24,509 bases of DNA from a virus. Each line of letters starts with the position of its first letter. Within the stretch, counting starts at the first letter, position 1. The stretch spans positions 1-24,509 of IMG/VR virus record IMGVR_UViG_3300025131_008761. The stretch is one strand, 5' to 3'. The notes under the pieces are model-generated. The model was not told the DNA's origin, did not search any database, and worked only from the letters and a program-made list of their open reading frames with translations. Position numbers and translations under genes: made by a program. Below, piece after piece: positions 3,061 through 7,940 of this stretch.

Positions 3061-3273
3061 ATGTTAAAAGAATTATACTCACAATACGGCGAAATAATGG
3101 TACAGATGGAAGTTCTTCAGGCTAGATTGAATCAGGTAAAATCTTCAATCTTTGCGGAATTGAAACCCAAACAGGCAGAGCAGACTGAAACAACACTGGC
3201 ACCACCCGAACAATCAGGATGTTGTCCTGAAACAAATGGTGTTTGCGGTGGCCCTCCAGCAGTAGAGAACTAA
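3061..3273 (+). CDS. Small coiled-coil/Cys-tail hypothetical protein
   Basis: A 70-residue protein beginning MLKELYSQYGEIMVQMEVLQ. The N-terminal half is a predicted amphipathic helix with heptad-like spacing. The C-terminal third is Pro/Thr-rich and ends in a Cys cluster (SGCCPETNGVCGGPP). A TTG start at 3016 is possible in the same frame, but it adds a low-complexity Phe/Lys stretch and overlaps the previous gene; the ATG at 3061 gives a sensible protein. Neither start has an SD. The stop overlaps the convergent GMP-reductase-like gene by 4 bp. The function is unknown. Confidence 0.55.
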   Translation: MLKELYSQYGEIMVQMEVLQARLNQVKSSIFAELKPKQAEQTETTLAPPEQSGCCPETNGVCGGPPAVEN

Positions 3274-4220
3274 ATTATAGTCCAATCTGATTTTTTTTGA
3301 TATTCCGCAATGGTTCTAGAGTTCATGTAACTCATAGAACTTCTAAGGCCATTGCGGAATCGGTGTATGATTTTTTCCAAAGGACCAGTATATGGAATTA
3401 ATGTTTCCATACCCTCTACATATTTTGGCTTCTTATTTACCTGCTTTTGTGTAGAAAATGATGCCGCCCCTTTATATATTTTCATTAATTGTCCATCTAA
3501 TCTAAGTGTTTTAGAGGGACTTTCTTCTGTACCAGCAAAAATACAACCTGCCATACATATATCTGCTCCCAAAACTAAAGCTTTACATATATCTCGTGGC
3601 TCTTTTATTGAGCCATCAGCAATCAACATTGTTTTAGACTTAACCGATGCACATTCTAAAACAGAAGACGCCATAGGATAAAATAACCCTGTCTCTACAC
3701 GAGTTGTACAACTCGAACCTCCTGCTATCCCGCACCTAATTGCGTATATATTTAAATCACATAGCCATTCATAACACTCTTTACTTGCTACATTTCCAAC
3801 AGTAAAATATACATCTGAATAAAGGCTCATCAATTTTTCCAACGTAGCTTTTACTCTAGTATTTGCTCCATTTGCCACGTCTAAACAAAAACTACGACAT
3901 CCAGCAAATGCTAATTCTTGAAATCTTTCAAAGCAATCCCCATTAATTCCAATAGCACACCCACAATCACAATCTGCCAATTTATATTCATTAGCTTGTT
4001 CTTCTATAGTGTTAAACCTATGAATAAATCCATAAGCACCAAGCCGCAATAAATGACCAGCCATTGTCCCATCACATACATCCGGCATAGGGGCTGCGAT
4101 TAATGGTACAGTTAATTTTTGCCCCGCAAATTCTACTGATGTATCTGCCTCATCTCTACTATCCAACGTAGAAATGTTTCTTGATATCAATCCTATATCT
4201 GAATATTTTAAAGCACGCAT
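3270..4220 (-). CDS. GMP reductase / IMP dehydrogenase family enzyme
   Basis: A 316-residue TIM-barrel protein without the CBS insert of IMP dehydrogenase. Visible are STLDSRDEAD (17-26), VPLIAAPM (38-45), LDVANG (113-118), the catalytic loop GGSSCTTR with Cys171, TGLFYPMASSVLEC (177-190), ADGSIKEPRDICKALVLGAD (201-220), YKGAAS and the C-terminal GLRSSMSYM. The loop plus the following TG.xYPxxSxxxEC is closer to GMP reductase (NADPH-dependent GMP to IMP). The IMPDH Arg-Tyr flap dyad is not evident, although a relative with another purine substrate cannot be excluded. The start has a strong SD (AAAGGAG, 7 nt). It is the last gene of the minus-strand operon, directly downstream of the TnpB element. 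Confidence 0.82.
   Translation of the reverse strand: MRALKYSDIGLISRNISTLDSRDEADTSVEFAGQKLTVPLIAAPMPDVCDGTMAGHLLRLGAYGFIHRFNTIEEQANEYKLADCDCGCAIGINGDCFERFQELAFAGCRSFCLDVANGANTRVKATLEKLMSLYSDVYFTVGNVASKECYEWLCDLNIYAIRCGIAGGSSCTTRVETGLFYPMASSVLECASVKSKTMLIADGSIKEPRDICKALVLGADICMAGCIFAGTEESPSKTLRLDGQLMKIYKGAASFSTQKQVNKKPKYVEGMETLIPYTGPLEKIIHRFRNGLRSSMSYMNSRTIAEYQKKSDWTII
3302..3360 (-). repeat. Large inverted repeat (hairpin) inside the 3' end of the GMP-reductase-like gene
   Basis: A perfect 12-bp inverted repeat (ATTCCGCAATGG at 3302-3313 and its complement at 3349-3360) encloses a second stem (3314-3323 with 3329-3339, ten pairs, one bulged A) and a 5-nt loop. The whole structure lies in codons for GLRSSMSYMNSRTIAEY. 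No T-run follows on the minus strand; on the plus strand a T6 run comes about 10 nt after the stem. Confidence 0.6.
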
Positions 4221-5584: not shown

Positions 5585-6022
5585 TCATGTCGGCTCTTGT
5601 GACCGCCAATCAAAATCTGTATCTTCAAAATCTGTATCTTCGCAATCCTTAAACTCACTAGAAAGACTATCATAATCCAAATTCATAAATGGGACATACT
5701 CTGCCTTATATCCTGCCGTATTTAACTTTTCTACCATGGACTGAGCCGCTTCATAGTTTAAAGAATGGATAACAAATCTTTGAACATCAGGTTTGTTTTG
5801 AACTACCCACCTAACAACTTCCATTCCCGTTTCTTTGCTGGATGGGTCAACATAAACCAACCCTCCCAAATCATGGTCTAGAAACACACATTTAGCAGTT
5901 TCTTCTAATTCAAAAAGCAATTGTATCATTTCTTCCGCTGTTGCAGCTAAAACAGCAGATGGAATATTACTTTTAAACTCGAACAGCCGTTTAGGGTTAT
6001 CATCTAAAAATAAAACTTTCAT
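5585..6022 (-). CDS. Cyclic-phosphate-processing receiver-like protein (cREC type)
   Basis: A 145-residue protein with a receiver-like Rossmann fold: MKVLFLDDNPKR with the acidic pair Asp7-Asp8, VFLDHDLGG with Asp49-His50-Asp51, then ETGMEVVRWVVQNKP and VIHSLNYEAAQSMVEKL. The DD, DHD and HSLN signatures fit the small family named 'cyclic-phosphate processing receiver domain', proposed by comparative genomics to act on cyclic phosphate ends in RNA repair/conflict settings; that activity is not shown here. It is not a classical response regulator: no output domain or kinase is nearby. The tail repeats EDTDF twice, from a 15-bp tandem duplication at about 5610-5640. It is separated from the exonuclease stop by 3 nt, with SD AGAGG. 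Confidence 0.72.
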   Translation of the reverse strand: MKVLFLDDNPKRLFEFKSNIPSAVLAATAEEMIQLLFELEETAKCVFLDHDLGGLVYVDPSSKETGMEVVRWVVQNKPDVQRFVIHSLNYEAAQSMVEKLNTAGYKAEYVPFMNLDYDSLSSEFKDCEDTDFEDTDFDWRSQEPT

Positions 6023-6025
6023 TTA

Positions 6026-6577
6026 CTAAACCTCTTTAGAGAATTTTTTTCTTATAAGTTTTACAATAACTTCAGCATCTTCTAATGCTGTATGTGCTGG
6101 TTCACCTTCTATCCCCGCTCTCTTCATACATTCTAAAGTATCTGGTATCTTTATATCCCCCGGTTCCCAATAAAGGATTGCAGGGTCTAAAACACGACTT
6201 GATATATGTAGATTAAAACGAGGAAGCTTTCTAAGAAATTGTAAATCAAAAGCGCCAAAACATTTTCCGGCTGCTGTTATTGACCCTTTTATACCATATT
6301 TTTCTAACCAAGCTACAAACTTCTTTCCAAACTGTTTGGGTTCAATATACGAATATGGCTTTTCTTTTTTTGCAATACGACGAAGAATAACAGGATGCAT
6401 AGACAATGCGTATGGATGTCCTATAAGTTCGTCATAAGTAAAATAAGTATGAAACCTAGGCAGTTCCTCAAAAGGCTTTTGAGCCAAAAGGTCATCTATA
6501 ACTGCCCCGACTTCCAAAATCTGATGGGTATCGTGGTCAGTACCAGTTGTTTCTATATCTATCGAAATTATTTTGAT
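6026..6577 (-). CDS. DnaQ-like 3'-5' exonuclease (DEDDh)
   Basis: The protein begins (M)KIISIDIETTG when translation starts at the ATC codon at 6575-6577, giving 183 residues. Exo I is DIETTG, Exo II is KCFGAFDLQFL and Exo III is HTALEDAEV, so the DEDDh metal-binding set is present. Such enzymes trim 3' ends of DNA or RNA (proofreading, RNase T or oligoribonuclease types). The only ATG/GTG/TTG-type start is a TTG at 6515-6517, which would remove Exo I. An SD (AAGGAG) stands 6 nt before the ATC, and an in-frame TAA lies two codons upstream of it. The beginning overlaps the end of the preceding small gene by 41 nt in another frame. Confidence 0.8.
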   Translation of the reverse strand: MKIISIDIETTGTDHDTHQILEVGAVIDDLLAQKPFEELPRFHTYFTYDELIGHPYALSMHPVILRRIAKKEKPYSYIEPKQFGKKFVAWLEKYGIKGSITAAGKCFGAFDLQFLRKLPRFNLHISSRVLDPAILYWEPGDIKIPDTLECMKRAGIEGEPAHTALEDAEVIVKLIRKKFSKEV

Positions 6578-6770
6578 GATTTACTCCTTCGTATGATTCG
6601 TGCTTATAAAGCTGCAAATAGACCACTTTATCTTTTTCATCCGATTTTTTAAGCTTTACTTTGCCAATTTCTATAGCTCTTAAAATATCACGCATCATTG
6701 TTTCTGAAATTTCTAAATCAATATTTGAAATTTCATCATTCTGATGCCAATTACAATTTATTTTTCTCAT
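6537..6770 (-). CDS. Small protein with EISExxxRDxL motif (paralogue of the 7865 gene)
   Basis: A 77-residue charged protein. The centre, LEISETMMRDILRAIEIGK, matches the paralogue encoded at 7674-7865 (IEISEQTLRDVLTIREMSK). The N-terminal MRKINCNWHQNDEISN is distinct. The C-terminal 14 residues are read from sequence that also encodes the exonuclease N-terminus in another frame. The start has AGGGA about 8 nt upstream, and the gene follows the Q_salvage-like stop by 9 nt, so it is in one operon with it. A short DNA- or protein-binding helical factor is possible; the function is unknown. Confidence 0.6.
   Translation of the reverse strand: MRKINCNWHQNDEISNIDLEISETMMRDILRAIEIGKVKLKKSDEKDKVVYLQLYKHESYEGVNHQNNFDRYRNNWY
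6575..6589 (-). promoter_or_regulatory. Ribosome-binding site pointing to an ATC start codon
   Basis: AAGGAG (6589-6584) is followed by TAAATC and then ATC (6577-6575), an ideal SD spacing. The TAA is in frame with the exonuclease and blocks a longer N-terminus. Codons after ATC read KIISIDIETTG, the usual opening of DnaQ-type exonucleases directly after Met. The site decides the start of the exonuclease gene. Confidence 0.6.
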
Positions 6771-6779
6771 CTCATATCC

Positions 6780-7616
6780 CTAGTAATCGGTAGTAATAGT
6801 CAAATGGAAATTATTATCACATGATTTCCTGTTTAGCCACAGCCAATAATCTACAACACTTGGATTCTTTCCAGATTTTTCACAAAGTGTTTTACATGCG
6901 GCAATCATAGATGCTCGTATCTCACACTCCATAAGAGAACCAGAAGGAATTAATATCCCTTCATCTATAACATTTTTCAATTCATCACTATACTGTAAAA
7001 TCCCCATATGTTCAAGCATCTTGGGAATCTGATAATCGGCGGGAACTGGCAACATATCGACTTGTGATTTAAACATATCAGATTTTCTTGCAACTTGCAT
7101 AAAGAACAAAGATGCTCGTTTCAAAAACATGTCATTTGCATACCCCGGATAAACAAGAACACTTTCTAAACAATCTTCTAAATCACCTCGGGAATCATAC
7201 AATTGTACCGCTATCATTTTATAATCTATATTGATTAATTCCATCAAATGAGATGAACGCTCATTCATAAGGGGGAACCTGTTTAAAGATAAAGATGAGA
7301 TAAAGTTTTGTATAACATCTACTCCACTCGGGTCATATACCTCATTTAAAACATCATACATACCCCATGCATTTGCACCACACGGCCTTATCTTAGAAGA
7401 CCCATACCAATAGCAATAATTAATTGCACCAGCTATAAGTTCATATTCCAATAACTCAATATCATTACTTACTTTTGGAGGAAGAGCTTCATTTTTTAAT
7501 TCTACTTCCTTCATCTTATCAATCCAAGACTCAATTGACACTTCACTAATTTCCACATATTTTGGATTAGCGGTGAATTGCTTAACTAAATCCCAGACGT
7601 TTTCTAGTGCTTTCAT
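6780..7616 (-). CDS. Queuosine-salvage (DUF2419/Q_salvage, QNG1)-like N-glycosylase
   Basis: A 278-residue, mostly helical protein with the landmark order of the Q_salvage family: AINYCYWYG (64-72), FPLMNERSSHLMEL (114-127), FLKRASLFFMQVAR with Lys166 (164-177), LPVPADYQIPKMLEHMGIL with Asp194 (189-207), YSDEL, IPSGS then ECEIRASMI (223-238), and VDYWLW (255-260). Known members are queuosine-5'-phosphate N-glycosylases that release queuine, with a fold related to helix-hairpin-helix DNA glycosylases and an essential Lys and Asp in corresponding blocks. A role in 7-deazaguanine salvage, or in cleaving a related nucleotide, is inferred. Identification is by motif recall, not by search. SD AGGA before ATG; it lies between the two small paralogues in one operon. 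Confidence 0.62.
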   Translation of the reverse strand: MKALENVWDLVKQFTANPKYVEISEVSIESWIDKMKEVELKNEALPPKVSNDIELLEYELIAGAINYCYWYGSSKIRPCGANAWGMYDVLNEVYDPSGVDVIQNFISSLSLNRFPLMNERSSHLMELINIDYKMIAVQLYDSRGDLEDCLESVLVYPGYANDMFLKRASLFFMQVARKSDMFKSQVDMLPVPADYQIPKMLEHMGILQYSDELKNVIDEGILIPSGSLMECEIRASMIAACKTLCEKSGKNPSVVDYWLWLNRKSCDNNFHLTITTDY

Positions 7617-7673: not shown

Positions 7674-7865
7674 CTAAATTATTGACCAATTTTTGGCCCG
7701 TTTTTTAAACCATGCATATTCTGTTATACGTTCTACTAAACTTTTTTTTGACTTATCTACCGTTTTTAAAACTTCACGAAGTGTCTTTGTCGGTATTTTG
7801 GACATTTCTCTTATCGTTAAAACATCACGCAGAGTTTGTTCTGAAATTTCTATTTCTGATTCCAT
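7674..7865 (-). CDS. Small protein with repeated [TL]LR[DE]VL motif; first gene of the accessory operon
   Basis: A 63-residue protein starting MESEIEISEQTLRDVLTIRE. A second, similar segment (KTLREVLKTVDKSKK) follows after about 15 residues, so it looks like an internal duplication of a helix. The first segment is shared with the 6537-6770 protein. The C-terminus is basic and aromatic (AWFKKRAKNWSII). The ATG at 7865 is preferred over an upstream GTG at 7913: it leaves a consensus promoter intact upstream and avoids translating the terminator. There is no SD. The function is unknown; helical and basic, possibly a regulator. Confidence 0.6.
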   Translation of the reverse strand: MESEIEISEQTLRDVLTIREMSKIPTKTLREVLKTVDKSKKSLVERITEYAWFKKRAKNWSII

Positions 7866-7871
7866 GAAAGA

Positions 7872-7900
7872 ATTATATCTTATATTGAAATAAATTACAA
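7872..7900 (-). promoter_or_regulatory. Sigma70-type promoter giving a leaderless transcript
   Basis: The -35 is TTGTAA (7900-7895), then a 17-bp spacer, and the -10 is TATAAT (7877-7872). Six bases (TCTTTC) separate the -10 from the ATG at 7865, so the expected start site is the start codon itself. It lies just after a terminator and heads the minus-strand operon running to 3270. Confidence 0.6.
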
Positions 7901-7903
7901 AAC

Positions 7904-7940
7904 AAAAACCCACTTAAAGTATAAATTTAAGTGGGTTTTT
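7904..7940. terminator. Bidirectional intrinsic terminator
   Basis: A perfect 15-bp stem (7904-7918 with 7926-7940, core CCCACTTAAA) and a 7-nt loop, A-run on one side and T-run on the other. On the minus strand it closes the 9286-7927 transcript just before the promoter at 7900; the stop codon of the small gene at 7927 is inside the stem. Confidence 0.85.

Follow-up and report, generated by a model that had tools for sequence, protein, structure and literature searches.

Animals and some bacteria salvage queuine, a tRNA base, with enzymes of the Q_salvage family; what does a gene of this family do in a virus? The question is raised by a gene, here termed QNG, on IMGVR_UViG_3300025131_008761, an IMG/VR virus contig that we analysed over its whole length of 24,509 nt (hereafter the window). 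The record carries T4-type replication genes encoding RecA/UvsX-like, gp32-like and DnaB-like proteins. A first-pass annotation had described a Q_salvage-like reading frame with six motif blocks on the minus strand; the frame and all six blocks are present at that position, and the numbering given for Lys166 and Asp194 is correct (Table 1).

Searched against Pfam, QNG matched PF10343 (Q_salvage) with an E value of 6.1e-18 and 65.8 bits (gathering score 25), the match covering residues 178–268 only. Neither PHROGs nor NCBIfam gave a match at E ≤ 0.01. Solved Qng1 chains matched QNG in phmmer at E = 2e-7, and each of the five distinct Qng1 sequences of the Protein Data Bank (PDB) could be aligned, along most of its chain, with a profile built from 28 viral relatives (E = 5e-26 to 1e-17). 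Judged by these sequence comparisons, the match to Q_salvage is far beyond chance. An AlphaFold model computed from 28 viral sequences reached a mean pLDDT of 94.6. The first 11 matches of a Foldseek search of this model against the PDB were all DUF2419/Qng1 (E ≤ 4.4e-10), and VIA superposed it on Qng1 entry 7uk3 with a Z score of 28.9 and an rmsd of 2.6 over 273 residues, and on human Qng1 with a Z score of 27.8. The model thus shows the Qng1 fold over the full length of QNG. The first-pass annotation had named a profile search as the refuting test of its family assignment; that assignment is borne out by PF10343 as the sole Pfam family at E ≤ 1, with no rival, and by the modelled fold.

Besides this fold, QNG shares with the Qng1/DUF2419 proteins of Sphaerobacter thermophilus and human the Lys/Asp pair, the NxCxW, ER, EIR and D motifs and a terminal H-x-T. 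The next family in the VIA comparison was that of the AGOG 8-oxoguanine DNA glycosylases, whose related glycosylase fold scored a Z of 15.7, about half that of Qng1, at about 12% identity over 209 residues. Together with the retained Lys/Asp pair, this neighbour could suggest that QNG is a glycosylase of modified DNA bases. We regard this as very improbable, since the match to the Qng1 fold is far stronger, runs over the full length and comes with Qng1-type motifs, and since no DNA glycosylase family was found in Pfam at E ≤ 1.

The alignment columns of Lys166 and Asp194 coincide with two positions altered by mutation in crystals of Qng1 with bound substrate. In the profile alignment, 7u5a deviates from the wild type at the Lys166 column (K to C) and 7ulc at the Asp194 column (D to N); the titles of these PDB entries describe the mutants K199C and D231N, respectively, bound to queuosine and queuosine-5'-monophosphate. 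The two residues singled out by the first-pass annotation are therefore those mutated by structural biologists, and, as read from the alignment columns, they fall on K199 and D231 within the full-length Qng1 superposition. To this extent the second refuting test of that annotation, on the placement of the two residues, supports it as well. Across the 38 viral-type rows of our alignment, K166, D194, R120, D162, E230, R234, D256 and H271 are identical throughout, with many rows recruited by a pattern containing Asp194, while Q196 occurs in 35 rows and K199 (viral numbering) in 32. Two motifs, ADYQ[VI]PK and FHLTxT[TS][DN]Y, served as search patterns, which biases their observed frequency; K166, R120, D162, E230, R234 and D256 lie outside both.

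Viral and cellular proteins also differ in ways that may bear on substrate choice. S. thermophilus Qng1 has eight more residues before its FYKRA block, a stretch that the viral proteins lack before FLKRAS. Next to the catalytic Asp, the two cellular sequences compared read ADYKVPQ (7uk3) and ADYRLPQ (7ugk), whereas the viral rows mostly read ADYQxPK (ADYQIPK in the window). On the strength of the altered motif and the missing stretch, the specificity of QNG may have shifted. Most of the viral proteins end in FHLTxT[T/S][D/N]Y, and they form a clade apart from cellular Qng1.

To place QNG among its relatives, we scanned IMG/VR with an alignment query and found 38 contigs, of 15 to 548 kb, that carry the same viral branch besides the window. 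By contrast, tblastn with four members (window, L013, L018 and L034) gave no match among the 50,697 records of named phages, and BFVD, a collection of predicted viral protein structures, gave no match at E ≤ 0.001. The earlier statement that such a gene is unusual in a phage therefore holds for named phages and BFVD and fails for environmental contigs. A single-protein scan of genome_contigs returned no relative, and an alignment scan returned one, L046 (JAHQJS010000001.1), on a 179-kb contig of a Candidatus Borrarchaeum metagenome-assembled genome. Its gene order (DnaB-like, QNG, SNF2, FolE) is that of the viral loci L020 and L051, so that L046 may itself be viral; it may represent a virus of a Borrarchaeum archaeon or a binning error. 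A tRNA-His(GUG) gene lies about 100 bases upstream of QNG on this contig. One IMG/VR locus, L056, retains only the last third of QNG (6001–6309), and the gene may be interrupted there.

Distant relatives of QNG were also found on five plasmids. Two of the encoded proteins, annotated as 'queuosine salvage family protein' in Azospira sp. I09 and on a Variovorax plasmid, exceed the PF10343 cut-off and have an ADYQ-type motif and an FHLT-type end like the viral rows, whereas their gene contexts are unlike the viral ones. On the Variovorax plasmid (L098), the Q_salvage gene is followed by a gene for an ATP-binding protein and later a VWA-like one, an order loosely like the AAA/Ro60 context of some phages described below. 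We built a tree of 41 rows, comprising 38 viral-type sequences (37 IMG/VR records including the window, plus L046), S. thermophilus Qng1 and two plasmid proteins; L012, a copy of L011, and the fragment L056 were left out. The viral-type rows separated from S. thermophilus Qng1 and the Azospira and Variovorax proteins with a branch support of 99/95, a split that is less sure than these values look because the branches are long.

The gene contexts of QNG follow this tree, six context groups requiring five changes together, the minimum possible. QNG adjoins a ribonucleotide reductase (RNR) cluster in 11 of 39 loci, with RNR directly downstream in most of those listed; elsewhere it lies near an SNF2 helicase gene and folE, or near genes for an AAA ATPase and a Ro60-like protein. 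In one group of large phages (L014, L018, L022, L026 and L029) the AAA ATPase and Ro60/TROVE genes come after QNG, and L022 has an RNA ligase gene nearby as well.

Within the window's own lineage, the QNG frame is conserved in both close relatives and is under purifying selection. Comparison with the relative L002 gave dN 0.039 and dS 0.41 (dN/dS about 0.10), and comparison with L003 gave dN 0.111 and dS 0.58 (dN/dS about 0.19). That QNG is a lone oddity or a chance match is ruled out by these values and by the 38 further IMG/VR contigs. A decaying or non-functional gene acquired by chance, a reading to which the absence from named phage records might lend itself, is hardly credible: the dN/dS ratios contradict decay, all 38 rows retain the catalytic residues, and the genes form a single viral clade whose contexts track the tree.

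The neighbours of QNG in the window are given in Table 1. Directly downstream on the same strand lies a DEDD-type 3'-5' exonuclease. Its listed ORF begins with TTG at 6517; an open frame extends back to 6577 and then takes in SIDIETTG. The codon aligned with the L002 start is ATC in the window, where the open frame is also overlapped by a small ORF. The L002 exonuclease gene starts nine bases past the QNG stop. Genes related to the IMP dehydrogenase/GMP reductase-like gene of the window also lie near QNG in L002, L018, L029 and L031; in L002 (9848–12213) this gene is split, its halves having putative intein-like ends and another ORF between them. A TnpB/OrfB_IS605-like gene with a Cas12f1-like TNB domain (PF07282; 4290–5528, minus strand) stands between the IMP dehydrogenase-like and cREC genes of the window and is missing from the corresponding place in L002. 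A thymidylate synthase-like gene (PF00303) lies upstream of QNG in L002 (5194–6138) and L003 (6793–7737); the window has none at 7674–7913, where the hairpin runs directly into a small ORF. Further from QNG, the window encodes a dCMP deaminase, a dATP/dGTP diphosphohydrolase, a HIT protein and a putative amidoligase (PF12224; 15630–16661, minus strand).

Table 1 Features of the QNG locus in the window (positions in nt; a dot marks a feature without assigned strand).
Feature	Position	Strand	Remarks
QNG, Q_salvage/Qng1-like N-glycosidase	6780..7616	-	278 aa, ATG start; Pfam, PDB, model and selection data
Lys166 codon (FLKRAS)	7119..7121	-	Aligned with K199 of S. thermophilus Qng1; same in 38/38 rows
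Asp194 codon (ADYQIPK)	7035..7037	-	Aligned with D231 of S. thermophilus Qng1; same in 38/38 rows, many recruited by a pattern with this Asp
Small ORF, no assigned function	6537..6770	-	Between QNG and exonuclease; overlaps exonuclease frame
DEDD-type 3'-5' exonuclease, proposed QNG partner	6026..6577	-	phrog_192; L002 copy matches PF00929
cREC receiver-like protein	5585..6022	-	PF20274; same strand as QNG
IMP dehydrogenase/GMP reductase-like protein	3270..4220	-	PF00478
15-bp hairpin and T run, terminator-like on both strands	7904..7940	.	Upstream of QNG gene group; consensus match only
Promoter-like site, after hairpin	7900-7872	-	Consensus match only

DEDD-type 3'-5' exonucleases yield 5'-mononucleotides. 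As this is the form of substrate used by Qng1, we propose the neighbouring exonuclease as a partner of QNG. Passages of two papers give queuosine-5'-monophosphate as the Qng1 substrate (PMC13421765, PMC11592518), and according to a third the sole activity known for the enzyme is cleavage of q from Q or Q-MP (PMC11130926). The reading that we consider reasonably probable is that QNG cleaves a 7-deazaguanosine 5'-monophosphate to the free base, aided by the adjacent exonuclease, and that the base is reused. The nucleotide bound would most likely be queuosine-5'-phosphate freed from degraded tRNA by exonucleases, the neighbouring enzyme supplying the 5'-mononucleotide in the window's lineage. The Asp194/Lys166 pair would then split the N-glycosidic bond to give the free base (queuine) and ribose 5-phosphate, and the base would be reused on tRNA by a host transglycosylase or, in sister phages, by a TGT/DpdA-like enzyme of their own. 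Most bacterial TGTs use preQ1 rather than queuine, which counts against this reading, as does the divergence of the viral rows from the two cellular sequences. In its favour, two of the 11 tRNAs in the scanned pieces of the 225-kb relative are tRNA-Tyr(GUA), a Q-type tRNA.

The fate of the base depends on which 7-deazaguanine genes accompany QNG. In family searches of the window and its two close relatives (63 and 225 kb), no TGT, DpdA, queC, queD or folE was found, these records being possibly fragments; a 7-deazaguanine operon in the window itself was ruled out by the same searches. A local phmmer search of L002, L003 and pieces of the 225-kb relative with 12 query proteins gave a sole match, an 80-aa stretch at E = 0.004 that we took as chance. 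The Vut_1 transporter was found in none of four records, the window's two relatives among them. These results count against the reading above, in that the queuine sink in the window's lineage would have to be the host's. Release from degraded tRNA followed by reuse through a host transglycosylase is the reading favoured for this lineage.

The picture is different in the wider set. The first-pass annotation had proposed a search for queC/D, folE and tgt/dpdA homologues; negative for the window and its two close relatives, this search was positive elsewhere, with 20 of 39 QNG records carrying at least one of QueC (12 records), FolE (5), PTPS/QueD (13), phrog_887 (7) and phrog_10773 (2). Canonical TGT (PF01702) was found in none of the 39, and divergent TGT/DpdA-like proteins emerged through PHROG models, of which phrog_887 is named queuine tRNA-ribosyltransferase and phrog_10773 has no stated function. 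The phrog_887 proteins form two groups, one of which (G009, G021, G022 and G029) consists of weak matches. The model of this group, from four sequences, had a pLDDT of 73.2, and all 50 VIA matches listed for it were TGTs (best Z 17.8), whereas plain Foldseek placed other folds at the top and none of its matches reached E ≤ 0.001. No TGT was returned when each of the two groups was used as a profile against the PDB, and hhalign did not join them. The phrog_10773 proteins (G027 and G028) we take to be TGT/DpdA-like from two features only, a motif of DSGG type, which occurs in that of G028, and a position beside queE.

Some records encode the preQ0 pathway and, close to QNG, a transglycosylase-like protein. 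In two records these genes are grouped with QNG. G028 carries queE, a 536-aa phrog_10773 protein gene, folE, queD, queC and QNG on one strand within about 12 kb, queC being the gene that precedes QNG; in G037, QNG, folE, queE, queC and a phrog_887 protein gene share a strand over about 16 kb, and queD has a separate place on the contig. In L034, too, queC lies directly before QNG; in other records, such as G009, the 7-deazaguanine genes are scattered. With folE, queD, queE, queC and a TGT/DpdA-like gene, G028 and G037 resemble the phage system of 7-deazaguanine DNA modification described in PMC6884629 (DpdA/DpdA2, FolE, QueD, QueE and QueC), whereas the window's lineage lacks that gene set. 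A search of the main text of that paper found the words 'salvage' and 'nucleosidase' nowhere, and no nucleosidase appears in it as searched.

We next asked whether queC is enriched on QNG contigs. As controls we used 40 random contigs of at least 25 kb, picked by exact 15-base patterns, and eight relatives of the RNR neighbour outside the QNG scans, one of them 22.6 kb; a UvsX-like query was dropped as a control, having given two relatives only. A PF10343 search of the 48 control records, run without a positive control, gave no match. After exclusion of the 8 of 39 QNG records below 25 kb and of a sub-cut-off match (G073), queC was above the cut-off in 11 of 31 QNG contigs and in 1 of 40 random contigs (Fisher p = 0.0003). 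A test of per-base rates gave p = 0.014, and at 60 kb or more the counts were 9 of 23 and 1 of 11 (p = 0.11, not significant). These p values are too good owing to shared ancestry: several of the 11 contigs belong to one phage group, and G079, an RNR-matched relative without QNG, has queC as well. The enrichment is thus suggestive and comes partly from contig size and lineage.

Two of these associations, the 20 of 39 records with a 7-deazaguanine gene and queC directly before QNG in L034, also speak for the reading given above. An alternative is that QNG naturally acts on a 7-deazaguanine deoxynucleotide or a preQ0/preQ1 nucleotide that phage 7-deazaguanine DNA modification makes or releases, and either recycles the base for DpdA or clears modified monophosphates from the nucleotide pool. 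The queC, queD, folE or TGT/DpdA-like genes on 20 of 39 records, the same-strand groups in G028 and G037, the adjoining RNR gene in one large group and the queC excess all point this way. On balance we hold it possible but unlikely, given that every one of these genes is missing from the window and its 63-kb and 225-kb relatives, that the queC excess weakens once contig size and lineage are considered, and that the solved Qng1 complexes contain, by their entry titles, queuosine or queuosine-5'-monophosphate. For sister phages with TGT/DpdA-like proteins of their own, supply of the base to DNA modification and supply to tRNA modification are equally open.

A role in counter-defence would have QNG strip or deplete the 7-deazaguanines of host QueC-like systems (type IV CBASS, Qat) or of Dpd restriction. 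The abstract of PMC13279940 describes QueC-family proteins at work in anti-phage systems, which gives the idea some basis; we consider it improbable, as no defence gene was recognised beside QNG among the annotated genes, the known chemistry of the family concerns free nucleotides, and nothing in our data ties QNG to such systems.

No viral or phage Qng1 was reported in the literature searched, and the queuosine passages of the huge-phage paper PMC7162821 name QueC/D/F only. Since it is missing from this literature, from named phages and from BFVD, a viral branch of Qng1 tied to 7-deazaguanine metabolism has apparently been undescribed so far. A bolder and doubtful version is that this branch, with a new specificity, is the base-recycling arm of phage 7-deazaguanine metabolism, recovering queuine or preQ-type bases from nucleotides of degraded host tRNA (or modified DNA) for phage TGT/DpdA-like enzymes to place into phage DNA or tRNA. 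If that were true, some jumbo phages would incorporate modifications of host tRNA into their genomes. According to PMC6884629, phages synthesise 7-deazaguanines de novo and use them in their DNA; recovery of such bases by a nucleotide N-glycosidase would amount to a salvage route for this chemistry in viruses. Our findings add a distinct viral branch to Qng1, which in humans is a micronutrient enzyme, and the altered motif beside the catalytic Asp of that branch makes its substrate specificity testable.
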